A stretch of 64,000 nt of DNA. It comes from Chrysophaeum taylorii (Eukaryota; Sar; Pelagophyceae; Pelagomonadales; Pelagomonadaceae). The translations under genes and the position numbers were made by a program. Location of the stretch: NCBI GenBank assembly GCA_029834535.1, contig JAQMWT010000446.1:35001-99000 (forward strand). Direction: 5' to 3'. The notes below the pieces were generated by a model. The model was not told the DNA's origin. It worked only from the letters and a program-made list of their open reading frames with translations, and ran no database searches. Positions 2,170-47,760 of this stretch are shown here, one piece after another (the first letter of the stretch is position 1; each line of letters starts with the position of its first letter).

Positions 2170-2820
2170 TCATGGTATCGCTTGAGGGGAAATGCAAGGG
2201 AGCGACGTTCCAGCCGCTTGTCGCGCGCGATGTTGTAAGTGATACAAGGGAGCGGGTAAATTAGCTGCGACATAGTGTATGGGTATACGTACATCTTTGT
2301 CTATGCGGCTCGTGACAGCGCTGAGCTTTGGCTCAGCTCGATCGTTGAACACGGTGGTAAGATTGGTCTGGTTCCATTCGAGCATGCTCAGGATAGCGAG
2401 ATGTCGGTCATGCACTGGTTGAAGACATAAAGCGAAGTCGATCTTAGCGTAGCCAATTTGTGGATGATCTGGTAGGGGAATAACGATGTTGCGTGTTAAC
2501 ATCATGTGTGATGCCCGTTGTTGTCCTGTTGCCGTCTGAATAACAATCGGAGCGTATGTAGAGTCCAACGGAATTATATGATTGGGTATAGCGAAATCGT
2601 AGGTGGACATCAATGAGATGGTAACACAAGAGTCAAAATATAGGAAAGAGCAATGTGGAGGGACACTGTTTACCTTCATGTAGTTGGTGAGGAAGGCGTT
2701 TTCCGAATGTGGGCAAGTAGTGCAGAGACTAGCGGTAAAGAAGTTCTTCAGCAATAACAGATTCGTTGGAATAATGATCGGTTGAACAGGTGGTGATGGC
2801 TCGTCAGCCTCATCAGCCAT
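2170..2820 (-). mobile_element. E1 retropepsin-like protease region
   Basis: A 216-residue open stretch contains 'LYFDSCVTISLM', which resembles the active-site segment of retroviral-type aspartic proteases (D-S/T-G-A), and a later hydrophobic 'LAILSMLEWNQTN' that resembles the second conserved segment (I-L-G-x-x-x-L) of that fold. It lies directly downstream of the gag-like region and upstream of the methyltransferase-like region, the same order as in E2. Confidence 0.5.
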
Positions 2821-2833
2821 GCCGTGTTTTTCG

Positions 2834-5328
2834 TCAATGACGATAGAGAGGTGTGATCGGCACCCCTTTTGGTTTCGGCTTGTGATGGTAGATTGAGGGC
2901 AGATTGGACCTGTGAAGATAGCGAGGACAATAATGCTGGTGGTAAAGCCGAGATGGCGGAAGCGGGAAAGAGGTTAGACAAGCGGGAAAGAGGTTAGACG
3001 CAGTATTGGAAGAATTACCCTGTGTGTTTGTAGTAGGAGGAGTTGTTGTTGGGGTGGGAGCAGTAACGACAGTATGGTGTTGTGGCTCCACGTAGTTTAG
3101 CGACTTTTCGGTCGAGGATAGATGAACGTCTACATCATAAATGATGTCTTCTGCAAACATGAGCTGTTCGTTTAGACGAAGTAAACTACTGTTGTCCTCA
3201 GTAGATGTTGTTGACAGGATATCGGCTGATTGTAGCAAGGTCTCAAATAACTTGTTGATATTACGTTGTAGCTGAGCCGTGGTATCATTATCTATCACAT
3301 GCTTCGTGAGTTCGCTACACTGCTCTCGCAGGGTGTTTAAGGTGTGGTTTGTTCGATCTAATAATTTCATGTTAGACCGAGAGGACCTGTCAAAAGTGCG
3401 GGGGTAAATTGGACGGTCATGGGACTGTCCGGCAGTTTTCTTGGTGACGTAAGAATCACCAGGACGATAATACGATAAATCGCTACGAGAGAAAGGCTGG
3501 CGAGCATCATTAGAGTTACGCAAGCGTCTAGCATTAAACGTGGAAGATGTACCAGGTTGGGACGAAGTGATGAAGGCGAGTGTGTTAGCAGTTTGAGTCA
3601 GACTTTTGTCCGATGAGTCCAAAGTATGTGTAAGGAGTAACTTTGGCTTTGGTTGAGATGATAAACCTTCGACATAGGGTTGCCAAGAAACAGGGCGTTC
3701 TAAGCGTCTTTTGTTCGACCCATTTGATACGACATTGTAAAGGTCTAATGCGTATTCTAAAATGTAGCGTGGGTTGGTAGGGTGACACAATCGTTCAGCT
3801 TCTGGTACAGGTCGAGATGAAGATCGGGTTTCGTACATATAACACCAATCTACCCAACCACGATCGTAGCGGTTGTTGCTGGTATTATCGGCATAGTGCC
3901 GATGTATCTCTTCATAGATTTTTCTGCAAAGAGTGCCAAAGTCGAATTGAAGGTCAGTCTCTTCCTGGTTAAGTTGGTAAGAGATTTGCCTAAATGCTAG
4001 GACAGCTTCGATAAATACATGGACATACCAGTTAGGATTATAAACAACAGAGTTAAATTGCTGTTTCAAATAAGACACATCAGTAGTCGTAACAGACTCG
4101 TAGTGATTAAAGGCGATGAGCATAATAGCTCGAGCCTTGTTGGGTAAATGGCTTTTGTTGTATATCTCGTTGATGGCGGGCCAGGCCGCAAGTGCCGGTT
4201 TTCCAACACTTTCAAGATTGAAGTAAGTATGTAAAAATGTAGCGTACGTGTTCTGGTAAGTGTGCCAGTCAGCTGCAGTTAACGAGAACATGGTAACCGG
4301 GGCACGAACACGAGTGTCGAAAGCTAGTGCCTTCGGGTGCGCGCGATTTAAGATTCGTTCCTCTTCTAAGAAACGAGCGTTGATTTCAGGACGTAATGCC
4401 TTGACTTCATAGTCGTAACAGACGGTAGTTAGCTGAGCTACTTCTGCATCAGGTAAGTGGGGAAAAGCTTCGTTGGTGAAATGCCATTCCTGATACTCAG
4501 GGGGTAACTCTAACTAACTAACTTCAGACCTCACCCGAGCATGGGAGCCAGGCCGGACCGACAGGTGCCAGTCCGGAATCACGGGCCTGTAGACGAGGAG
4601 CGCCGAAAGGTCGGTCGGCGGAGAGTGACCATCGAGCTTGTCGCCATGCGACGAGGAGACCGCGATGTGACTGACAACCAACTCGTCGATAACCTTCCGT
4701 CTTCGCCCCCCGGCCATACCCCGTCCCACTGCGAACGTTCCGGCTGCCAACCGGCCCGCCCGGGAGGCGAATAGGTGCCAACCTACGCCGGGAGGGCGGA
4801 TGCCCTCGCAAGGCTCAGGATTCATGAGGCACCAGGGGGTAACTCATCAACAGTTAAACGGAGATCAGCAGCCCTATCGGTCTTCCATTCAAGGAAAGCG
4901 CGATCGAGAATTTGATTCCGGAGGATTTCGTAGTCCTTGCATGACCGAGTATATGCTTCATACGAGTCGTACTCGAGGAAAGCATCGGCATGACTGGACC
5001 GTAGTAATTGCTTGATATGCTTGATTTGCAAGGATACCTTGCGGTTCTGAAGCTGAAAGCGGTTGCCCTCATTAAGAAACTCAACTACAGGAGCTTCCAG
5101 CTTCAATATATCCGCACCTGTGATCGCCTTAGGTGCGGCTCGTGCTGCGTGTTCTGCCATAGCAGTTGACGGGGAACCTGTGGGTTCAGTCACGCAGTTG
5201 ACACTGTCTAGACATTCTAAGGGGGGTCTGTCTATCGGTGTGTACTCATCGATTTTTCGATGGAAAATGTGTCTATATGACGACTGTGCAAGCTGTGAGT
5301 CCAGAGTAGTGTCGCTAAGCGTAGTCAC
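2834..5328 (-). mobile_element. E1 gag-like region
   Basis: Two long open stretches (about 485 and 168 residues) lie either side of a SINE-like insertion. The larger has an alpha-helical, tryptophan- and tyrosine-rich character (for example 'DWHTYQNTYATFLHTYF' near its start) and a Ser/Arg-rich C-terminal part, as expected of a capsid-type region followed by a basic tail. There is no recognisable zinc knuckle. The assignment rests on position: it directly precedes the protease-like part and holds the place of gag. Sequence similarity to the gag of E2 is not obvious by eye, so the two elements are far apart. Confidence 0.6.
4511..4832 (-). repeat. SINE-like repeat copy S1 (5'-truncated, perfect 13-base target duplication)
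   Basis: A 322-base insert flanked by the perfect direct repeat cagggggtaactc (4498-4510 and 4833-4845). Read on the minus strand it starts GTGCCTCATGAATCC and ends in a (GTTA)n tail. It lacks about 45 bases present at the 5' end of copy S2, the pattern left by target-primed reverse transcription. It lies inside the gag-like part of E1, so it is younger than E1. It contains a roughly 100-codon open stretch shared with the other copies, which reflects recent common origin rather than a proven protein. Confidence 0.9.
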
Positions 5329-5784: not shown

Positions 5785-6142
5785 CTTACCCTGATCGCCG
5801 ACCGCATGGTTGCGATGGAGGACGGTGCCTCATGAATCCTGAGCCTTGCGAGGGCATCCGCCCTCCCGGCGTAGGTTGGCACCTATTCGCCTCTCGGGCG
5901 GGCCGGTTGGCAGCCGGAACGTTCGCAGTGGGACGGGGTATGGCCGGGGGGCGAAGACGGAAGGTTATCGACGAGTTGGTTGTCAGTCACATCGCGGTCT
6001 CCTCGTCGCATGGCGACAAGCTTGATGATCACTCTCCGCCGACCCACCTTTCGGCGCCCCTCGTCTACAGGCCCGTGATTCCGGACTGGCTCCTGTCGGT
6101 CCGGCCTGGCTCCCATGCTCGGGAGAGGTCTGAAGTTAGTTA
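5785..6142 (+). repeat. SINE-like repeat copy S2 (full length, 13-base target duplication)
   Basis: A 358-base insert between perfect copies of gttccctatatcc (5772-5784 and 6143-6155). It begins CTTACCCTGATCGCCGAC and ends GAAGTTAGTTA. With S3 (14042-14403) it defines the full-length family. No convincing tRNA-like A and B boxes can be read at the head, so the origin of the 5' region is open. The variable-length tail and long target duplications indicate mobilisation by LINE machinery. Confidence 0.9.
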
Positions 6143-6155
6143 GTTCCCTATATCC

Positions 6156-6589
6156 GCAGAACACGACAGGCGGCATCTAGAACTACACGAGAAAGGTTAA
6201 GTGTATAGTGCTACATACCTCGGGACGCGCTAGACCATGATGATGAGCGTAGGCAACAAATCAGAGGACTATTTGATTGTGTAGAAAGGAAGAAGAAAGG
6301 GTAAGGAAGAGATCACGTTGTCAACGGACGGATAAGGGTAAGAGGCAGCAGATTTCTCTGCATTAAGGAGAGTTCTTAATTTGAATCTATAATTATTTAA
6401 TTTCTGACAAGGCGAATTTAGTCGTGCACTAGAAACTTTCACACACCGTCGTCGAAAGTGGATCTTCGCGATTTTTCTGCGCGTAGAGGGGCCCAAGACG
6501 CGTCGTTTACGCACATAAAAACCACCTGTTGCTCACACACCCCGGCCCCTGAATTTCGGCGCGCTTAGGTGGGTCTTGATTGTAGATCT
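6156..6589. other. Gene-free AT-richer interval
   Basis: No supported gene or RNA. Short open stretches here have no protein-like composition. It lies between SINE copy S2 and the TGTCATTTGGTCA repeat cluster. Confidence 0.5.
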
Positions 6590-14041: not shown

Positions 14042-14403
14042 CTTACCCTGATCGCCGACTGCGGTTGCGATGGAGGACGGTGCCTCATGAATCCTGAGCC
14101 TTGCGAGGGCATCCGCCCTCCCGGCGTAGGTTGGCACCTATTCGCCTCCCGAGCGGGCCGGTTGGCAGCCGGAACGTTCGCAGTGGGACGGGGTATGGCC
14201 GGGGGGCGAAGACGGAAGGTTATCGACGAGTTGGTTGTCAGTCACATCGCGGTCTCCTCGTCGCATGGCGACAAGCTTGATGGTCACTCTCCGCCGACCG
14301 ACCTTTCGGCGCTCCTCGTCTACAGGCCCGTGATTCCGGACTGGCACCTGTCGGTCCGGCCTGGCTCCCATGCTCGGGAGAGGTCTGAAGTTAGTTAGTT
14401 AGT
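14042..14403 (+). repeat. SINE-like repeat copy S3 (full length)
   Basis: Begins CTTACCCTGATCGCCGAC like S2 and ends with three AGTT units. Internal sequence is nearly identical to S1 and S2, so the family was active recently. Flanking TGTCATCC (14033-14040) and TGTCATTCC (14404-14412) look like a slightly diverged target duplication. Confidence 0.88.
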
Positions 14404-22618: not shown

Positions 22619-22752
22619 AGGTGTTTGAACGAACAATAAATTAGATGTCGACCTTGTCGGGGTTATCTGCTGCTGCTGCTGAGAAGAAGCGACGCGACAT
22701 CGCCAGCTCGAGTAAAGCGTGGTCAGGTTTAGAAGGGCGGACGGGAGGAATT

Positions 22753-22959
22753 TAGAGATAGAAAATCTGAATTAGGGTTAGTACCCCCTATTCTAGGGCT
22801 AGTTTCCTTAACTTTGCCACCTTTGATTTAAGAAAAAAACGCTGTGTGTTATTCACACCGGCTGTCCTCCTCGTATTAGGAGATAAATTCGAGGACAGAC
22901 TACCACTGTTCTCACGCTCTGCTGCTGAAGGGTAACACAGTTGTGATTACTGTTCTCTA
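22753..22959 (+). repeat. 5' LTR of E2
   Basis: 207 bases starting TAGAGATAG and ending TTCTCTA, so the LTR termini form a 6-base inverted repeat TAGAGA/TCTCTA rather than the common TG...CA. It matches the 3' LTR at about 97 percent. No convincing initiator-tRNA primer-binding site follows it. Confidence 0.93.
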
Positions 22960-23053
22960 GGTATTGGGCACCAGTAGTCCCGGCGGTATCGGCAGAGCCT
23001 CAGGATTTCCAGAAGAGTCCCGTCACTCCCTGACGTTCCTGAACCCAAGAAAA

Positions 23054-24805
23054 ATGCCAGCCAATCAAGAACTCCAAAGGGAGATGAAAGGACAACAAGT
23101 CCGTTTCAAAATAGACATGCAACAACAAGCTCAAGCGTACGAAGCTCGGCATCAAAAAGAGATGCAAGACCAAGAAGCTCGCTTGATGGCTCAATTAAGC
23201 GCGTTGTCCGCCCAAGTGCAATCAACGCAAGCACCACCACCTGCCGTCGCTGCTGCGGCTCCGCTTCCCACTCCGGCTCAGCAAGATCCCAAGACTAAAG
23301 TTAACACCCTTAGTGACCCACAAAGCGCCGTCCTCAAGTCAATGGACAACGCGCAAGTCACACCCCAAATGCTTTCGTTTCGCGTCATGCAGTTGTTCGT
23401 CGAACATCTGATGCCTGAAACAGGCATAACTCAGTACTTCCTACAGGGCTTCTACACGTGGGAATCCGTCTTGCGCGGATCTAATGATCTCGCTGACACT
23501 CTCCTAAGCCACTGTATCGACCACCACTCTACCGCCGGGAACACGCAAGATTTCCAAGGCCGTTACGTCTACCACAAGGGTGTCTACCGCAAGTTCGGCA
23601 AGCACTTCCTGGAGAACGTCTACGAGCCAAAGCTCCAAGAACTTAAAGATAAAGACAAGGACCCGACCGATATGACAAAAGGCAAGTTGTATCCGATCAC
23701 CCAACCTCACCTCCAAGGAAAAGAAGCCGACTTCATCGTATATCTCCGCGAGACCGTACACCCCCTCTTTCGCCGTTTCCTACATGCCGGTAGCGACTCC
23801 GTCAAGCACCCAGCATACGACGAAATCGATGCACTCGGATCTTCCTATCCGATAGGACTCGAATTTGTGCTTCAAGTTCGCCTAGCACTCGACAAGCACA
23901 CGGGCCAGAACCACGTCCACCATGCGCATTACGTCTATAATGCCTTTCTGGACACGCCGTTCAACCCGGAAATACATGAGCCTGCTCACTACATTGACTA
24001 CATGCGCCATGTCCAGCAGCAACTGCGCCAGATAACAACCGATGCTTCTCTCCAACTTTCCGACGATAAGATTCTCGAGGAAATCCACCAAATGCTTCGC
24101 TTTAAGTACCCTCCAAGTTTGCTTGACTCCCGCGCCCCAACACACATCAAGGGCTTCGCACGTCTTGCTAACTGTCTGCGCACTCCCAACGACTCGCTGT
24201 TACTCGACGAAGACAAGGAAGCCATCCACCACCTTCCTAAGCTCATCGCTCGCATCACCGTCATCTCCACGTTTGAGCGCAACTTTTGGGCTCACCTCAA
24301 GCCTCACCCAACTCTCAACTTCAAGCCTTTGCGCTTCGTCACTGACTTTGGTCGTCTGCCAACAAAGGACAAAGACAACCCCCGTTTTCGCTCCCGCCGT
24401 CATGGTCTCCACCTCACCGAAGACGATGATGACACCTCTCCCTCTGAAGACGACACCCCACCGGACCCCGATGAAGACACCGACCCCGTCGCTGTTTTTC
24501 TCACGGAGGCCAACCTTGATCAAGATGAAGACAATGACCTCATTCACCAACTCCACGCCTACCGCAAAAGCAAATTTAGCGGCACCCCAAGAAGGCCCCT
24601 CCTAACAAAAAGCCTCCAAATCCTCGCTCCCCGTCTTACTACGACATCAATGACAGTCCTAAGCCCAAGGCCACCCCTGTCACCCCAACGAAGAACAAGC
24701 AACGTCCCCGTGCTACTCCTGTCACCCCTGACAAACGCGAGCACCCGCATCTTCGCAAGGTCACCTTCCCACACAACCTCATCCACCCAAACCATCTACT
24801 CCTGA
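23054..24805 (+). mobile_element. E2 gag region
   Basis: Begins at MPANQELQREMKGQQ with a Gln-rich coiled-coil head, followed by an Ala/Pro linker and a helical capsid-like part containing 'FYTWESVLRGSNDLADTLLS'. The C-terminal part is acidic, then Thr/Pro/Ser-rich. Its position immediately behind the 5' LTR identifies it as gag. Confidence 0.75.
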
Positions 24806-25379
24806 CCAACGCTTCAAGGTCCCCCTTCGTGAAGTCCGTCGCAAGCTCCAAACCATACGGAATCTTAGCCAAGCCGGTCGCCAACATACGTCCAGCTCCG
24901 AGCGCACGAGCAAGCTAATCAACCTCATCGCCAACATCTCCGACGAGATACTTCTCTCGGAAGCCGAAAACGATGCCGCAGAATTTCGCCCGATGTTAAC
25001 GTCCGATCCCCAGGACGATCCACCTGATGAGGGCAAAGTCGAAACCGATGAACAAGATGAAAAAGGACACCTCGGTTTCTATGACGACAACGGTCAGCTA
25101 GACCTCTACGACGACACCATTCCCGAAATCAATGATGAAGATGACTCCGCCGAAGACTACGCACAACGTCACAGTGACTATATGCGTGCTCTCCACCAGA
25201 GTCGGCTTTTTCGCTGATGGTTGCCGACGACGCCTGTGCCGCCAACCACATCTTACTCCATCAGGCACCAAACCTCAAGATGACGAAATTCCCGACATCA
25301 TCAACCATCTCACGCAGAGTCGCAGATTTTATTGGTGCAACTTACACTCCAGGAAAGACCTCAAAGAAGACTAACTCGC

Positions 25380-25800
25380 TACACGGCTGCAATGGACCCG
25401 GCACTGAAACTTCATTGATTGACGGTGGCGCATCTTTTTGCTTTACGCGCACAATACAACAATTTGTTCCTGAGTCCATACGCCGGATTCCCGAACACAA
25501 CCATTCATATGGGACGAGGCACCCTTACCAGCCACATCATCGGTGTTAAACCGTTGTATTTGCAGGCTGCGGGTCTTTCATCAAAAGATACAAAAGACTC
25601 AACCGGTTACGCTTTGTATCTCGTATTCATGGTCGTCCCGCAATTCAGGAAAGGTCTCCAAGTTATCGCAACATCTCCGCTTAAAGCTCTGCATGTACTA
25701 GCCACCGATCCGCCACGCCCCCACGAGGCATATCTGTACGAACTTGTGAAGTCCTCCACCTTCGATCGCACGATTATAAGACTCTTATAGGAAAAACCGC
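25380..25800 (+). mobile_element. E2 retropepsin-like protease region
   Basis: 'SLIDGGASFCFTRT' resembles the D-S/T-G-A active-site segment of retroviral-type proteases. It lies between gag and the methyltransferase domain, matching the layout of E1. Confidence 0.5.
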
Positions 25801-26092
25801 CGTCGTACTCGCCACTCGCAAACCAAACGGCCTATTGTCCCTGCCGTCCCATCCAAAGCAAACATTCACCACTGTGCTCAGTTTCCACACAAGACAGAGA
25901 ATGTCACTCAAGGATGAGATTCCACACATCATACAGCATGTCGCCAAGACACGCTCTAAATCGCACATGCTTGATTTCCACAAGTTACAGAATCATTCCC
26001 TGTACTTAAACGAACTGCTCAACCTCCAACATACTGTCGTCCACTACGCCTTCAATGGCTCCGCAGACCTCTCTGCGCAAACACAACCCCCT

Positions 26093-26625
26093 CCGCTCAA
26101 AACAGCCATTATTGCAGGTGGACTTCACCAGGAAGGTTTCGACACTTTTCGCAAGCGATTCGACAAACGCCTTACTGTCGTGGTCACCTGCGAAATTAAC
26201 GATATAATGCGCACCCGTGCGCAACAACTCTTTCCGCACGCTCAGCACTATGCGGACCTAAGGAAACTCAATGCCGCACTCCAAACCGGCAAAATACGAC
26301 TACCTCCATTCGACTTGGCAGTTTTTACATTGCCCTGTCAACATCTGAGTGTAATGAAAGAATACGACGGCTATGCCACTCCGGTCACCGCCGACCTTTT
26401 CGTCCAAGAACAAATCCGCTTCGTTCGTTGCACGCTCCCGACCTACGCCATTGTCGAGAACGTACCTCCCAACCCCCGAACTCATCACGAGTATGCTCAA
26501 CTCGCAAAAGGTTATCAGCGCTTAGGCTACTTCCGACACTCCGGTGTCTACAATGCCTCTGCTTTTGGTGATGTCATCAGCAAGACACGCTATCTCGCTG
26601 TGTATGCCCGACACCCGCTCACCGG
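26093..26625 (+). mobile_element. E2 C5-cytosine DNA methyltransferase domain
   Basis: Within a 756-codon open frame beginning at 25835, residues 88-262 show the C5-MTase motif series: 'AIIAGGLHQEGFDTF' (motif I, S-adenosylmethionine loop), 'VVTCEINDIMRTRAQQLFP' (motif II), 'YADLRKL' (motif III), 'FDLAVFTLPCQHLSV' (motif IV, Pro-Cys-Gln with Cys168), 'YAIVENVPPN' (motif VI, Glu-Asn-Val at 208-210) and 'NASAFGDVISKTRYLAVYAR' (motif VIII). The spacing is compact. Such a domain would methylate cytosine in DNA. Capture of cytosine methyltransferases by retrotransposons has been reported in some algae and dinoflagellates; here it stands between protease and integrase. Confidence 0.85.
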
Positions 26626-27009
26626 CTACAACCTCGAGAAAACCGCTTCTACTTGGTTAACCTCGCCTCCGAGCATGGTTCCTCTCCTGGACCCCAGTCA
26701 CACCATCCCTGACGATCTCTGGATCGCCAAACCCGCCCTTCGTGGTACAGTGCCCCGCTCCACCTTGGACTACTACCAGCACAAGGCCACCCACTCCTAC
26801 AAGCCCGCCAACGCCTCGAAACTCTCGATTTCCGAGAATGCCCGCATCTGCCAAATGCTCGCACGCTTCACCAAGCCCTTCACGGATCTCGGTCTAGATG
26901 CCGACGGCACCCCCTACGCCACGATGGAGTACATTTCCCACCTCCTGGTTTTCACATTGCTGCACAATCATTTATCGCAACACCCAACTCTCGCCGCTTG
27001 GAACACCCT

Positions 27010-27250
27010 CCGCTGTTTTCATGCCTCAGAGTCTCAATGTGCTTACCATTTGGATGGAGCCATCACCGGCACCGCCGCTACTGCCGTCGCATGTGGCTAC
27101 TTCCCGCGCGCCTCCCTCACCCTACATTCCAGGCCCCCTCAGATATTGGACTGTTCCCATCAACCCGCAGTCTTCTCCCCAACGCACCCCTTTTCCCTGG
27201 ATGTTCCCAAGGGCACCGCCTTTCTGGTCGTCGCCTACACCACCTCCTTG
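27010..27250 (+). mobile_element. E2 possible 2OG/Fe(II) dioxygenase-like (TET/JBP-like) domain
   Basis: In the same open frame as the methyltransferase, residues 395-470 contain 'CAYHLDGAITG' (H-x-D-G, His405/Asp407), a run of beta-strand-like segments, 'AVFSPTHPFSLDVPKG' with a candidate second iron-binding histidine (His451), and a final strand 'TAFLVVAYTT'. This order (H-x-D, about 45 residues, H, strand) is that of the double-stranded beta-helix in 2-oxoglutarate dioxygenases, including the TET/JBP group that oxidises methyl-pyrimidines. E1 has a comparable H-S-D-G region in the same place. The match is by eye and weak; another beta-barrel fold is possible. Confidence 0.4.
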
Positions 27251-27489
27251 GCCGCCGCTCACAGCTGCTCGCGCCCGTCCACTTGGGTCCACTATATGAA
27301 TCGTTCGCATCCTGGCTTTGCCGCGATCGACTCACGAGGGCGAATTACTCTCGATGACCCCAAGGGACTCATTATGTCCAAAGCACGTCCCACTTACGCG
27401 GACTATGTCGGCCACATCGGAGACACGCTTCAGAAAAGCACCAAGTGTTACTCGGTCACTGGCTCGTACCCAACCAACACGAGCTACTC

Positions 27490-29560
27490 CAACGCCTTGC
27501 TGCTGATCTCTCCAGACCACATCCGCTATGCGACCCTCAACGAAATCGCAAAGTTTGGACACCACTCGGACCCGGAACTGCTCCGTCTGTTCCAACAGCA
27601 CCCGCCGTACTTCGCGTTTAAGGCACTGGCCAACGCCGTCCCGCACAATATGCTGCAGGCAAAGTACAGCGCTGTTCTCGCACTCCACGAATCGCACCAC
27701 CACGTGAACTTTCACATCGAATGGGCAACAATACGCAATGGCATCCCCAGCCCAGGAGACATCACCCAGGTTGCAGACTTCTTCATGAGCATCTCCAGCC
27801 GTCTCTTAGCAGAGGAGGACCTCAACCTCACCTCCCTCTTCAATGCCATAGCAGATGCTCACCATGATGCGATCCGCAAACCAAGCAAATCGAAAACCTC
27901 GAGACGCTTCTTGCAGAGGCAACCGTTGCTAAAATCCGAGTCGACAAGCGACCCAGCCCCCCCAGCGCTTCGACTGCTGCTCTGCCTCCCTTGCACAAGC
28001 CCGGCACCATTCAGCACGCCAACAGAGTGCTTTTGGTCACTCGCTGGCACCGCATACACCACCAGCAACCAGAGATTCTTCGCCGCACGATTGCCGCTAA
28101 TGTAACGAATCTTCGCCCAGGTGATGATCGGTATCTGCAAGACTGCAGCGAATGCAAGCGCTGTCAATCGCATGTCAGCTTCCGTCACAAGAACACTTCC
28201 TGGTCACAGGATGAACTGGCCTATGCTCCTGGCCAACACCTCCACATGGATGTATCATACCCGAGCATCAGCAAGTGCTACGGTGGATTTCGTTACATCA
28301 TGCATTTCGTGTGTATTATCTCAGCACACAAGTGGGTCTATTTCCTGCGGAAACTAGACGCACAGGATGTTCTGGCCGGCATCCTCTATGTGGTCAATGT
28401 GATTAAGGTCGAATTCGATGTCAACGTGAAAATCATCTCGTCTGATGCATTCTCAACTTTCCGCTCTGAAGCTTTCCACCCCGTCAAGGTGCAACTTGGC
28501 ATCCAGTTTCAAATCCTTTTTCGCCACCTCCACCAGCGGAATTTTGCGGAAAACATCATCAAGGAAAACACCCGAGGCACCGTAGTTCGCCTCCTCAACC
28601 TCCGCAGTGTACGCATCGAGGGAAAGTCTATTGCCGCCGAGTATTATCATCCATTTGCTCTACTCCATAAGATCCAAGCCGACAACCAGCGCTCTCATGG
28701 ACTGCCCTCGCGCACAAACATGGCATGCACCGTTCCCCGGCGTATTATGTCACCCATGGCACCGCTCTTGAAGCTCCTCCCCTTTGGCGAACCTGTCACT
28801 TTTGTCTACCCTCAAAGTCGCAAGCTGGAACCCTCCAGCGTCACCGCTTCTTACTTTCACAGTAACAACTATCTCCCGAACCTCCCCGGCACGGACCGAT
28901 TTATCCGTGATGTTCACAGCTCCATCTTGCTTGTACATCAGGGGCGATATGGAAAAATCGTCACCTCTAACGACTTTCGTGTTGACGCAGACATGCCAGT
29001 CAACCGTAACAAGGAGATCGAACGGATCAAAGCACTCGCACAGATCCCAACAGAGGCACGGCAAGAGGACCCGCTACCAGCTATAAGCGAACAGCAAATG
29101 CCGGAAGTTAGACAGGAATCGCAAAATGAGGGCGAGACTCACGATGACGAGCACGATGATAAACCTAGCGATGACGACGAACACAAAGAACCGGATCCAA
29201 CTCCCGCTGCTGATTCAAGTCCCGTCAGCGACGAGACACCTGAACAGGATTTTTCGTTCCTCAACCGGCCACCTCCGCCGGATGGTAGCATTCCGATGCC
29301 CAAACGAAAAGATCGCCTAGAGGTTGTTCTCGACGATTCAGGTTTTACCCCAGTTCTCGTGCATCGCAACCAGAGCGATAAGCTCAAAGCAGATCTCAAG
29401 GACGAACGTGGATTTCGCATCCCTAAGGATCAACTCTATATCGTGAAACGTGTTGACGATGGAAAACTCTTCACCAGACGCATTATCGCCTCAGAGTATG
29501 GTCGCAACTGGAAATACCAGCAGGAGCAATCCACGGCTCACGCCACAGCCAACATGTCCA
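27490..29560 (+). mobile_element. E2 integrase region
   Basis: A pre-integrase His/Cys segment ('FGHHSDPELLRLF' to 'CSECKRCQSH') precedes the catalytic core with 'LHMDVSYPSIS' (first Asp), 'IISSDAFSTFRSEAF' (second Asp) and 'RNFAENIIKENTRGT' (Glu). This is the DDE layout of Ty1/copia integrases. An acidic, Pro-rich linker then leads to the RT. Confidence 0.8.
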
Positions 29561-30199
29561 GCACATTGATGTTCCTCATCAGTGTCAGCGCTCTGCACCA
29601 GGGCCACGCCGCCAGCATCGCATCTGATCTCAACATTCGAAGAGATGCTAAGCCGCCAAATGATGTCCCGAAAGGATGTCTCCTAGCAAGTACCACACAA
29701 GACTATGGTATCATGGGCGGCACCGCACTGGATTTGCAGAGAGAAACCGACGCAGAACTCTTGTATGTTGACTTCCCAAGGAAGCCGTACCACTCATCTA
29801 GATTGGTTGACCACCTCGATAACGACAATTCTGTTCTCGAGAAATATGTGTGCCACGACGAACTGTCGCCGGCAGAGTATTATGCGCGTCAATGGAACCA
29901 AGAGCTCTGTTGTATGGGTCCCTCTCTTTTGTGGGACATCTCCGCGCATCCGCACTACCACCTAGCTTCTCGTCACAGGCATGCCTTCATGCATGATTCT
30001 GGCGAACTCGGACACCTCTTCCTAAGTCAAAGTGATCCGAATCAAGATATTCTCCAAGAAGTCATGGACTATGACTTGCAGCACATCGATCACGTCGTGT
30101 TACAACTCGTGACTGCTGAAGATATTGTCTATGAGCCTGAAAAGATTGTCGAACTCAAAGGACTCAGCGAAGAAGATAAGTTAAAGCACATTGCTTCGA

Positions 30200-31060
30200 T
30201 TCGCAAAGAAATTGAAGGCTTATGCTCCAACGGTGTCTTTAAACTTGAACCTTCACCGCCAGACCGTTCGTCTATCTCGACGAAACTCGTGCTGAAGATC
30301 AAGTATTTTGCTGACGGCACTCCAGACCGCTATAAAGCTCGTCTAGTCGCCCGAGGTTTCTTGGCACGTGTAGGCATTGACTTTTATGCCACATCCTCCC
30401 CAACCGCAATGCTCGCCACCAACCGGCTACTGCTCGCCATCGCTGTGAAGCACAAGCTCCCGGTCGCGCACGCGGACATTCCTCAGGCATTCATCCAATC
30501 GGCACTCGATCGCCCAGTATGGATCGACTTCCCTCGAGGAATACGTGTCTCGCAAAATCTTATCCAGCAGATACAGAAGAACCATCCAGAGTCGAAGCTC
30601 GCTCTCCGACTCGTCAAGGCTCTCTATGGCCTCAAACAGTCAGCTTTGTTGTGGAACATCAAACTCGACTCGTTTCTTCGACAACATGAGTTCGAACGCT
30701 CACAAGTCGACACTTGCCTCTATATCAATTGGGATCGATCTATCAACAAATGGGTTCTACTATCCGTTTCAGTCGATGACCTATTGATCACTGGTACCAA
30801 CACTGCCAAAATTACATCTCTTCGCACTGCTCTGGAGAAGGAATATGGCAAAGGTACGTGGCATGACAACATCAGATCCTTTCTTGGCATCGATGTTCAC
30901 TACAATGTCTCCGCTGGTCATCTCACTATGAATGTAGCAGCGAAGATCACCAAGATGCTTGCTGAGCATAAGCTCAACCTACATAGTCTGGACGTCCCCT
31001 ACTCGGACATCCTCATTCAAAACCTTCTGCTAAACTTCTCTCAGACTTGGCTCCTACCTT
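30200..31060 (+). mobile_element. E2 reverse transcriptase region
   Basis: Typical Ty1/copia RT blocks: 'YKARLVARGFLARVGIDFYA', 'LPVAHADIPQAFIQSALD', 'LVKALYGLKQSALLWN' and 'LLSVSVDDLLITG' (the Y/V-x-D-D active-site block). Confidence 0.92.
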
Positions 31061-31755
31061 AGACGTATTACGCCAAAATTTTCCTCACTACTGTGGCACT
31101 AGCATTTACTTGTCTGTCACATGTCGGCCTGATATCACCACTTTGTGCAACAAATGCTGCAAGGGCATGCACAACCCCGATCAGACCCACCTTCTGCACT
31201 TATATGTTTTACTTCGCTACTTAAAGGGCACTCCGAATGATTCACTCGACTATTCATCCGACAGCCCCTCTATTACCCCCTTTATTCAGCATCTGATCAA
31301 CCGCTATCCTGAACTGCATCACCTTCGTTCACCCATTATTTGTTTTACTGATGCAAGTTTTGCTGATCGTTCTGACCCTCGCTTGCGATCCAATTCTGGT
31401 GCATGTATCTTCGTCTTTGGCAATCTCGTATTTTGGTCTAGCAAACGACAAACTCTTACTGCCAAAAGCACCATGGAAGCTGAACTCATCGCCGCCAGCG
31501 CAGCCGCCGATGAATGTCGCTGGTTTTACAAGCTTTTCTCCTCTCGCCCTTATCTGTTTTCGTGTGATCAAGCTCACGCTATTCCCCTGCTTATTGATAA
31601 CGCTAGCGCATTACATGTCGCTAATCACCCTAAAGTCAGTGCTCCTTCTCGTCATATCAACTTACGAGAATTTCGCATTCGTGACTACCAAGCTAATTCG
31701 ATCATTACACCTCTCTGGTGTCCTACTCACTACCAGGTCGCTGATCATTTTTGAA
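31060..31755 (+). mobile_element. E2 RNase H region
   Basis: 'CRPDITTLCNKCCKGMHNP', 'ICFTDASFADRSDPRLRSNS', 'TAKSTMEAELIAASAAADEC' and 'LIDNASALHVANHPKVS' are the usual Ty1/copia RNase H signatures, ending 'CPTHYQVADHF' about 220 bases before the 3' LTR. Confidence 0.9.
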
Positions 31756-31974
31756 AACTCCTATCACGCAATTTCTTTCACAAGTTCAAAAACGCCTACA
31801 TTGTTCACACACACCTCCTCCTCACCGCCATCTCATCAAGTTACTCTTTCAGCTACTCTTCCACCGTACGACTCACCCCCAGAACACTCTCTACATTCTT
31901 GTCGATGGTAAGACGCTCCCTGCTTAATTTTGATCCATTTGATTTCGCTCACCGAGGTTCAATGTGTGAGGGCG

Positions 31975-32175
31975 TAGAGATAGAAAATCTGAATTAGGGT
32001 TAGTACCCCCTATTCTAGGGCTAGTTCCCTTAACTTTGCAACCTTTGATTTAAGAAAACGCTGTGTGTTATTCACACTGGCTGTCCTCCTCGTTTTAGGA
32101 GACAAATTCGAAGACAGACTACCACTGTTCTCACGCTCTGCTGAAGGGTAACACAGTTGTGATTACTGTTCTCTA
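31975..32175 (+). repeat. 3' LTR of E2
   Basis: 201 bases, colinear with the 5' LTR, with the same TAGAGA...TCTCTA ends and followed by the target duplication GAATT at 32176-32180. Confidence 0.93.
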
Positions 32176-32354
32176 GAATTGAACGTCCTCCGGTGTCGAG
32201 AGCATTTTTTTGGGAAGGGGCAGGAGTGAGGTGCACCGCACGGAGGAAAAGAGAATGAACAGGGTCGGTGAAGGGATGTCGGGGGAACCCGTACGGAATG
32301 GAGAGAAAACCCTCATAAATTAAACCTCGAGCCGCGCAACTTGGTGTCGATCGA

Positions 32355-45724: not shown

Positions 45725-47760
45725 CTAGCTGCGGGGAAGCTTCAAAAAACCTTCCCATTTCTGAAGAAGTGCCAAAATCGCATTCAAGTCACCACAGGTA
45801 ATTGCGGTTGCACACATTCGTCGGAGCCTGACTCGGAGGTAAGAGTCCTGCTCTTGCTCACTATTAAGAGCGTCCCACTCAAAGAACGGAATGTGGGCAA
45901 CGTCCCAACCGAGCGGCCGCAACAGTCGGGACTTGAAGCGCGTAGGCCCGTTCTCGACCCTCTTTCCTCTTAGGAAGTGGGATGGTCCGTCGACTCCGAT
46001 CGCGCGCTTTTCTTTTCGTCGGGTTGAGCCATGCCGAGAGACAACAAATCAGAGGTCGCGTTCTCAAAGACGTGCGTCCAGCCAACTCGATCGAGTGCGG
46101 TCGCTCGATTTGAAGCCGGGAAGGTGTAGGGTCACGACTTTGGGTACGCCATCTGAAGCAACGGCCTGTGGTTTAATACCGAGAAGCTCCGGTCAGGCCA
46201 CTCGAGTTGAGCGTGCATCAATGCGAGGTGCAGCTGCGAAAGGCTTCAATCATCTCGAACGTCGAGATAAGTGACACGTTTGCAAGCTGGGCAAAAAACT
46301 CGGGGTCATTTTTCCAGTCGACGCAGGCAAATGCCCACGCGATGCTGGCGAGATTCTGTTGATTTAAATCGCCAAGCCGCGAAGTAGCCATGTCAGGGAT
46401 CGCCCTGAAGAGCTGAGGCGCCACCAACAATGCCAGCTGTCGCGAAGGCCCACGATGTGTTGGCAAATCCCTGCGGATTGAACTGATTCAGCTGCGAAGA
46501 TGCAACACTGGCAATCGCCTCGAGGAGCTGAGGCGCCACCAACAATGCCAGCCGTCGGGAATGCCCACGATGTGTTGGCAAGTCCCTGCGGATTGAATTC
46601 TCCCAACCGCGAAATTACCATGTCAGCGATCGCCGCGAAGAGCTGAGGTGCCTTAATACCAGCCGTCACAAAGGCCCACAATGTGTTGGCTAGTCCCTGC
46701 GGATTGAATTCGCCAAGCCGCGGAGTTGCCATAATATCAGCGATCATTGCGAAGAGCTGAGGTGTCCCGATGCCCGCCGTCGCGAAGGCCCGCGCGGTAT
46801 CGTCGAGGTTCTGCCCGCGGATTGAATTTGTCCAGCCGCAACAAGGCAAAGTCAGCGATCGCCGCGAAGAGCTGAGGTGCTTTGATACCCGCGGTCGCGA
46901 AGGCCCAGGCAGTCGTGGCAAGACCCTGCGGACTAAACTCGCCCAGCCGCGAAGAAGCTGCTTTGGCAACCAGAACGAAGAGCTCAGGCGCCTTGATAGC
47001 TGCCTTTGCAAAGGCCCACGCCGTGTTGGCGAGGTTCTGTGGAGATTGAACTCGCCCAGCCGCGAAGATGCCGCGGCGGCGATCGCATCGCCTCGCCGCG
47101 AAGAGGTTTGGCGCTTCGATAGCCGCTGTCGCGAAGGCCCACGCAACGTTGGCGAGGCCCTGCGGACTGAATTCGTTCAGCCGCCGCGAAGATGGCCATC
47201 GCCGCAAAGAGCCCTGGTGCCTCGATGTCCGCTGTCGCGAAGGCCCAAAAGCTGTGTTGGCAATGTCCTGCGGATTGAACTCGTCCATCCTCGAAGTGGC
47301 CACGCCAGCGATCGCCGCGAAGAAATGAGGTAGTATAAACTTGGTGCGTACCGTCGCAAAGGCCCACGCCGCCGCCGCGTTGCCGCGAGGTCGTCCGCGA
47401 CGGTTTTTGCACCGCCTCGCATATCACAGTTTCGGCCTCCAAACTTGACAACACGATGTACTGCGGTCGCCAACATTGAATTTCTCGCCTCGAGCCGCAA
47501 ATATTGAGAGAATCGTCTCACGACTCGCACCGCTGCCCGTTCGCGCGCGGCTCGAGCAAGTGCGACGAAGGTAGGGGCGGCGGGCTTTGTCTAGGCGATG
47601 CGTCTCGCGCTCTTTCTCACTCACTTGTCGCGCCGGCGACTGAAAACGGCGCGGGTTTTGACCGTGGCGCGGCCGGTTTGCCAGGCAGTCGTCGTCTCGG
47701 CGAAAGAGAACGACTAAAAGAATCAACCGCCACGACCAGCACGCTCGCGGCACACGTTGT
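45725..47760 (-). pseudogene. OPR-like repeat / RAP-domain protein gene, frame-broken
   Basis: The minus strand encodes, across several frames, about nine or ten units of a roughly 38-residue repeat with the core 'LGEFNPQGLANTLWAFVTAG' and 'KAPQLFAAIADMV' (best preserved 46364-46830, continuing to about 47300). This is the pattern of octotricopeptide/Tbc2-like organelle RNA-binding proteins common in algae. At its C-terminal end, 45850-46010 reads 'IGVDGPSHFLRGKR' then 'SRLLRPLGWDVAHIPFFEWD', a RAP domain (I-x-V-D-G-P-x-H-F...G-W-x-V-x-x-I-P-F-F-E-W). The N-terminal part near 47424-47550 reads 'ETILSIFAARGEKFNV', also typical. Frames change at least four times, so the gene looks dead unless many small introns or sequence errors explain it. 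A functional copy would act on plastid or mitochondrial transcripts. Confidence 0.75.

Follow-up and report, generated by a model that had tools for sequence, protein, structure and literature searches.

A Ty1/copia retrotransposon family with a putative C5-cytosine methyltransferase domain between protease and integrase

A Ty1/copia element carrying a domain homologous to C5-cytosine methyltransferases (C5-MTases) over motifs II-VIII, placed between the protease and the integrase, was identified in the window, i.e., the whole 64,000-nucleotide stretch of DNA analysed here. This methyltransferase (MT) domain occurs in at least 100 loci of the genome and has been subject to purifying selection. 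With modest confidence, we favour the reading that the copia element captured a PCQ-type (bacterial/phage HhaI/Dcm-like) C5-MTase, which would be borne in the particle and is predicted to methylate the element's own cDNA.

Structure of the element in the window

As summarized in Table 1, the element displays an RVT_2-type reverse transcriptase (RT), an integrase upstream of the RT, and LTRs with a 5-bp duplication, as in Ty1/copia elements. In an alignment whose ends were set by reading, 195 of 201 aligned bases of the LTR pair were identical, with two 3-base gaps, and GAATT stands on both sides; the preliminary description of this DNA had called the element LTR-bounded, and so it proved to be. 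The order integrase before RT was found in the window and in two further copies (L039 and L040), the rve match itself being below its cut-off. Both the RVT_2 match and this weak rve match were located by Pfam in the frame 27868-31062. Pfam scans of positions 22961-24802 in the gag-like ORF1, of the protease region of the window copy and of the RNase H-side frame gave no match. The motif DGGAS is presumed here to be that of the protease, and HHCC is likewise taken to be the zinc-binding motif of the integrase.

At the ORF1/ORF2 junction CTTTTTCGCTGATGG, the ORF1 stop codon TGA (25215-25217) overlaps an ATG in the ORF2 frame (25217-25219), with a -1 frame relation. Of 30 copies searched, 27 yielded the junction, and 24 of these keep TGATGG. 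The TGA/ATG overlap, as read from sequence, suggests -1 slippage or termination-reinitiation. Compared with ORF2 of L039, the window copy runs in frame 2 over 25178-27967 and continues in frame 1 from 27895, and its protease stretch is broken into the ORFs 25178-25549, 25419-25790, and 25685-28105. The frame is thus interrupted within the protease part and again between MT and integrase, which makes the window copy a defective one with an open MT domain.

Table 1. Features of the Ty1/copia element and their positions in the window
Feature	Position	Strand	Basis or remark
Target-site duplication GAATT (5')	22748-22752	.	read from sequence
Ty1/copia element	22753-32175	+	LTR pair 97% similar, GAATT duplicated at the target (5 bp)
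5' LTR, TAGAGA...TCTCTA	22753-22959	+	direct repeats, LTR alignment
gag-like ORF1, split into several frames in the window copy	22961-25217	+	
Protease region, frame-disrupted in the window copy	25178-25790	+	DGGAS at 25421-25435
ORF1/ORF2 junction CTTTTTCGCTGATGG	25206-25220	+	read from sequence
806-aa open frame with methyltransferase domain	25685-28105	+	ORF list
Family-conserved methyltransferase domain (577 residues searched)	26060-27790	+	
Motif I-like IIAGGLHQEGF	26108-26140	+	hand reading
PF00145-matching part	26222-26605	+	Pfam
Motif IV PCQ, putative catalytic Cys	26333-26341	+	aligned with HhaI
Motif VI ENV, putative catalytic Glu	26456-26464	+	aligned with HhaI
Motif VIII-like SKTRYLAV	26579-26602	+	conservation among copies
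C-terminal conserved block, by-eye IX/X reading (IRYATLNEIAKFG ... ALANAVPHNML)	27503-27694	+	
Integrase HHCC zinc-binding motif	28048-28164	+	read from sequence
Integrase core (rve)	28222-28509	+	PF00665 E 8.7e-4, 20 bits, below cut-off 32.6
Reverse transcriptase RVT_2 (Ty1/copia type)	30232-30975	+	PF07727 E 4.6e-41
RNase H-side frame	31035-31811	+	91% identical to matching L039 frame; named by position
3' LTR	31975-32175	+	direct repeats, LTR alignment
Target-site duplication GAATT (3')	32176-32180	.	read from sequence

Elsewhere in the window, a second retroelement was read at the left edge (2170-4513, minus strand; gag-like 2834-4513, protease-like 2170-2973); of the 8000 bases spanning this edge (C446:28001-36000), 7000 are without letters, so that its pol is out of view. 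A 300-bp direct repeat, 98% identical, lies at 5808-6107 and 14063-14362, 8.3 kb apart. A unit repeated at intervals of about 115 bp or multiples of this, with 62-83% similarity to the reference copy, occupies 46314-47195 on the minus strand and overlaps the open frame 46364-47176, which is possibly a repeat protein gene.

Identity of the methyltransferase domain

The frame holding the domain, which had been described as opening at 25835 and in fact starts at 25685, matched the Pfam family DNA_methylase (PF00145) at residues 180-307 with an E-value of 5.2e-8 (33.1 bits; cut-off 22). The profile search proposed in the preliminary description thus returned a significant C5-MTase match. The NCBIfam model TIGR00675 (dcm) gave E 3.4e-8 for the same frame, below its cut-off. 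Taken singly, 12 of the 14 open copies of alignment A1 matched PF00145 (limit E 10, best 1e-8), as did a 210-aa piece of another copy with E 2e-12.

In an alignment with HhaI, PCQ and ENV of the element fell in register with the known enzyme, and a profile-profile alignment placed them likewise. Comparison by hhalign of A1 with seven phage C5-MTases together with the DNMT2-like protein of the host scored 52.2 over domain residues 37-181, whereas the maximum score in 100 column shuffles was 28.6. Two other copies matched phage DNA (cytosine) methyltransferase genes in tblastn (best E 5e-5 among the matches listed), and tblastn against plasmids returned annotated DNA (cytosine) methyltransferases (best E 1e-5 among the matches listed). 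Single solved structures were matched weakly (E 0.061 with the profile, 0.026 with one copy), the DNA MTases HhaI and HaeIII being nearest. Four lines of sequence comparison agree in predicting a C5 METHYLTRANSFERASE identity over motifs II-VIII (domain residues 37-181), and the earlier claim of a C5-MTase within a copia element is upheld by the PF00145 match, by PCQ and ENV, and by the phage and plasmid MTase matches.

The best plasmid E-value (1e-5, at 32% over 130 aa) belonged to AP017967 and CP113869, plasmids of Candidatus Megaera polyxenophila. The host field of CP113869 names the ciliate Euplotes, and the match is too weak to name a donor.

Motifs I, II, III, IV, VI, and VIII had been read in order; II-VIII are statistically supported, whereas motif I of the element, IIAGGLHQEGF, only approximates FxGxG and lies outside the significant profile match. 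Its residues are each 95-100% conserved in 39-41 copies, and some of the tblastn phage and plasmid matches begin at domain residue 14-17. The span originally given for the domain, 26093-27250, covers the catalytic half, while the conserved domain extends to about 27700. For the C-terminal IX/X-like block, 269 of 500 shuffles reached the score observed against reference C-termini; a profile comparison of the C-terminus of the domain with reference MTases found nothing, and the C-terminal piece matched no solved MTase up to E 10. Because motif I departs from FxGxG and IX/X are unconfirmed, the SAM pocket could be altered. An AlphaFold2 prediction from 26 rows had a mean pLDDT of 30 and was thus without use for fold searches.

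A 2OG-Fe(II) dioxygenase was also considered for the stretch after motif VIII and was rejected: the His of HxD was present in 34 of 42 copies and replaced by Q or K in the other 8, no Arg was seen by reading at the expected place, and no such Pfam family was listed.

With regard to the type of the enzyme, motif IV of DNMT3 is PCN, whereas the element has PCQ, and no DNMT3-named chain occurred among the seven solved matches up to E 10. Phage MTases made up all of the 20 best BLAST lines for the element MT, host DNMT2 and DNMT5 being absent from them. In a tree of motifs II-VIII built with phage and host MTases and without DNMT3 references, the element was unplaced and the host branches were long.

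Copies and layout in the genome

The genome searched was the window's own assembly (70.8 Mb, 697 contigs). The 577-aa domain gave 86 matches (best 76 of 798 candidates scored) and PF00145 gave 57 (best 123 of 474 candidates scored); two of the latter were host genes and 55 belonged to the copia element, namely 31 in loci of the 577-aa domain, 4 others, and the remaining 20 of 20. In total, the element MT was found at no fewer than 100 loci on 85 contigs, a lower bound because further candidates were unscored, with C10/C297 and C25/C521 as possible duplicate contigs within the count. The genome-wide count proposed earlier thus found the domain well represented in other copies of the element, and the MT-bearing element is a family, not a single event. 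A query with the C-terminal half gave 142 genome matches, which were kept apart from the 100-locus count, and LTR matches numbered at least 43 (best 40 of 385 candidates scored).

The layout was assessed in the 30 best 577-aa-domain matches (L009-L038) with 1.5-kb flanks, the window copy included. Protease-side and integrase-side sequences were present in all 30 loci, and in 29 of 30 the best pieces followed one another on a single strand as protease-MT-integrase (PR-MT-IN). Together with the order in the window, this agrees with the position between protease and integrase given in the preliminary description. In the exceptional locus, L019 (contig C489), the strand opposite to the MT carries the best protease-side and integrase-side pieces, and a second copy or an inversion adjoins. 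Protease, MT, integrase, and RT share a single open frame of 1952 aa in L039 and of 1868 aa in L040. L039 also has a 217-bp perfect tandem duplication (406-839), in the gag region by position.

A chance motif match, contamination, or an assembly artefact could be suspected from the weakness of the best single-structure match (E 0.026). The number of loci and contigs, the shared LTRs, the shuffle control, and the long open frames speak against such an origin, which we regard as extremely improbable.

RT loci of the family numbered at least 104 (best 105 of 1493 candidates scored). A listed MT lay within 6.5 kb upstream of 57 of the 104, and 47 were without one. Three of these 47 (L077, L078, and L079, on contigs C71, C3, and C37) were inspected, and each had lost an internal segment including the MT, with left ends at element positions 1425, 1098, and 2956 and right ends at 6195, 6286, and 6380. 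In L079, about 1.1 kb unlike any part of the element fills the gap, beside a short reversed match to an LTR end. For the three inspected loci of the 47, an MT-free ancestor was thus rejected, all three being internal-deletion derivatives. Their left ends differ and their right ends fall within 185 bp (6195-6380); in these three loci, the clustering possibly marks a recombination or template-switch hot spot.

Selection on the domain

Ka/Ks was calculated as the median of pairwise values (Nei-Gojobori) over pairs that shared 60 codons or more and had a Ks greater than 0.03; the pair sets differ between regions, and the RT region yielded no pairs. The medians were 0.18 for MT I-VIII (550 pairs), 0.19 for the protease side (153 pairs), 0.14 for the integrase (251 pairs), 0.23 for the middle (654 pairs), 0.25 for the C-terminal block (452 pairs), and 0.47 for the integrase-RT linker (57 pairs). 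In four copies covering every region, the pooled values were 0.15 for the protease, 0.15 for the integrase, and 0.24 for the pre-MT part, and within the MT 0.27 for II-VIII, 0.43 for the middle, and 0.44 for the C-terminal part. The MT in these four matched copies is thus constrained but less so than the protease and integrase (0.27-0.44 against 0.15), its values being partly inflated because one copy has a local MT frameshift. The MT domain is kept under purifying selection.

The Cys of PCQ (C93) was kept in 58 of 61 copies, the Glu of ENV (E133) in 57 of 62, and the Arg of motif VIII in 58 of 59, counts that are favoured because 20 of the 62 loci were picked by their PF00145 match. In conservation rank among the 577 positions, C93 is 189th and E133 is 319th, so the putative catalytic Cys and Glu do not stand out.

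These data bear on the alternative of a catalytically dead domain with a structural or nucleic-acid-binding role in the polyprotein. The non-canonical motifs I and VIII, the conservation of the putative catalytic residues at no higher a level than their neighbours, and the weaker constraint on the MT than on the integrase in the matched copies are in its favour. Retention of C93 and E133 at the above frequencies despite post-insertion decay, even with the favoured choice of loci, and a Ka/Ks for I-VIII that is close to the protease-side value in the larger set count against it, and we consider loss of catalysis unlikely.

Separately, ORF2 of L016, L024, L027, and L039 showed a synonymous difference of 0.05-0.10 at residues 601-975 versus 0.13-0.19 upstream; this dip suggests mosaic or recombined copies.

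Host genome and CpG signal

One plastid-type rbcL of form ID (red-type) was found in the assembly, with 7yk5, 5mz2, and 5n9z, presumably diatom entries, as best solved matches, along with 84 light-harvesting-protein matches. These fit a red-derived plastid, as in an ochrophyte or a haptophyte; the earlier assignment to a likely stramenopile is compatible with the ochrophyte reading, but a haptophyte would fit too. Vitrella, considered at first as the host, was rejected on account of the form ID rbcL, since Vitrella uses another Rubisco. On contigs C88 and C539, light-harvesting-protein genes stand in tandem, mostly at intervals of about 1.2 kb, and their match scores are nearly equal.

Two host C5-MTases were found: a DNMT2-like gene (L001), assigned by motif reading, and a DNMT5 in an open frame of 2086 aa with a partial SNF2 match (E 3.3e-13). 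A host DNMT1, 3, or 6 may have been missed because the search was intron-blind and scored the best candidates. The MT part of the DNMT5 matched 7r76 (PDB name Rad8), which we take to be Cryptococcus Dnmt5, with E 8.5e-128. DNMT2 is the tRNA type and DNMT5 the maintenance type.

Over the whole of ORF2, pairs of copies showed C/T differences at 4-fold sites at a rate of 0.178 before G, as against 0.088 before A, 0.170 before T, and 0.214 before C, i.e., without a CpG excess. In the part of ORF2 after the MT, the rate was 0.293 before G versus 0.090-0.193 before the other bases; the MT region showed no such enrichment. The element has an observed/expected CpG ratio of 1.02, and five host genes or frames in the window have ratios of 1.33-1.46, a contrast that is no test because composition differs. 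The proposal of cDNA methylation is weakened by the missing CpG-specific C/T excess over the whole of ORF2, and this indirect decay test likewise lent no support to the conjecture of the preliminary description that the element marks its own DNA or alters host silencing.

Copia particles package RNA and tRNA, and the domain might instead be an RNA cytosine methyltransferase acting on packaged RNA, e.g., the primer tRNA or the element RNA. The absence of CpG decay among copies over ORF2 as a whole would be in keeping with this, as would the LINE-borne DNMT of Symbiodinium, with which no DNA methylation was obtained in yeast (an inconclusive result) and for which RNA methylation is suggested in the consulted part of the source (PMC5890265). 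Since the nearest solved matches, all of them weak, are the DNA MTases HhaI and HaeIII and no host DNMT2 is among the 20 best BLAST lines, we judge an RNA substrate improbable.

In a further alternative, the domain would act in trans, marking or silencing the chromatin of the host or of rival elements, or would restrain the element itself. Such roles are discussed as possible for other DNMT-retrotransposons (PMC5890265, in the sections consulted), and the high copy number of the family would suit them. The CpG ratios, higher in the host genes or frames than in the element though differing in base composition, argue against a role of this kind, to which we assign a low probability.

Proposed mechanism

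According to the favoured proposal, that of a captured MTase methylating element cDNA, the polyprotein would be cut by the protease, freeing the MT, which may then travel with the RT and integrase in the particle and methylate cytosines of the element cDNA before or at integration; the position of the domain and the consulted sections of PMC5890265 suggest both the cleavage and the methylation step. Such a mark could be copied on by the host DNMT5. Candidate benefits to the element would be host-like DNA, protection against nucleases or deaminases, and damped expression after insertion.

In Cryptococcus neoformans, DNMT5 maintains methylation, and this species lacks de novo activity (PMC10538959, as far as consulted). 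The copia MT alongside a host DNMT5 raises the question whether a mobile element can start methylation that a maintenance enzyme keeps. In the strong form of this idea, the copia MT would start de novo marks on its cDNA and DNMT5 would copy them in a host with only the DNMT2-like enzyme and DNMT5, so that the methylome would be seeded by a parasite; we consider this unlikely. Long-read data could show the methylation and expression of the family directly, given its at least 100 copies, some of them with open polyproteins. The copia element may thus write the very mark that hosts usually use against mobile elements.

Comparison with known systems

No relative of the 577-aa MT domain with E of 0.001 or less was found in a set of 5.8 billion proteins (about 8000 candidates scored, lengths limited), nor did the 1952-aa polyprotein reveal an MT-domain relative at this threshold in the same set (again about 8000 candidates scored and lengths limited). 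The whole ORF2 as query retrieved 376 copia-like proteins, of which the 120 listed cover 9-17% of the query; PF00145 was found in none of these 120 or of the four long ones rescanned. Viral contigs gave one distant MTase (L056, 27%) and no match with another copy as query. A collection of bacterial and archaeal contigs gave no match to the element MT, which says little because the host DNMT2-like query was also without a match there.

DNMT-retrotransposons have been described in dinoflagellates and charophytes, namely as LINE and DIRS elements of Symbiodinium and as Gypsy of Klebsormidium, and the LTR Copia elements of Symbiodinium are stated to lack any DNMT domain (PMC5890265, in the sections consulted). 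The same sections report that DNMTs of the DIRS class carried out de novo CG methylation in yeast, for which methylation of cDNA was proposed, and that the LINE and Gypsy DNMT domains gave no DNA methylation there, a result that the authors call inconclusive. A single sentence of PMC12344493, citing PMC5890265, states that LTR Copia and DIRS hold DNMT3 members; the portion of PMC12344493 consulted describes no copia element, and the sections of PMC5890265 describe Gypsy, DIRS, and LINE. We found no description of a copia element with a C5-MTase in the open-licence papers searched.

Among the known systems, KnitGypsy-Dnmt3 of Klebsormidium nitens resembles the present family in being an intronless LTR retrotransposon with a C5-MTase inside Pol and in its purifying selection (Ka/Ks below 0.2 for KnitGypsy), and differs in being a Gypsy element with a DIRS-type repeat arrangement and a MTase of the DNMT3 type (PMC5890265, in part). 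The copia element, in contrast, has the order PR-MT-IN-RT, PCQ, and a host with form ID rbcL. SymbioDIRS-Dnmt3 and SymbioLINE-Dnmt of Symbiodinium are likewise intronless, retrotransposon-borne C5-MTases in many copies, but they reside in tyrosine-recombinase DIRS and in LINE elements (PMC5890265, in part). Sola1-1_Ec32 of Ectocarpus is a brown-algal mobile element with a DNA methyltransferase; unlike the copia family, it is a DNA transposon whose enzyme is of the N4-cytosine or N6-adenine type and which has a ParB-like domain (PMC12477816, in the part consulted). With HhaI, HaeIII, and the Dcm-type C5-MTases of phages and plasmids, which are its best solved or annotated matches, the element MT shares PF00145, PCQ, and ENV; identity amounts to roughly 20-32% in parts of motifs I-VIII. 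It is distinguished from the HhaI/Dcm-type enzymes by some 300 extra family-conserved residues after motif VIII and by its embedding in Gag-Pol. Sequence comparison thus provides evidence that the copia family represents a further capture of a putative C5-MTase by retrotransposons, this time in a different superfamily, in an alga with a red-type plastid, and apparently with a different type of MTase.
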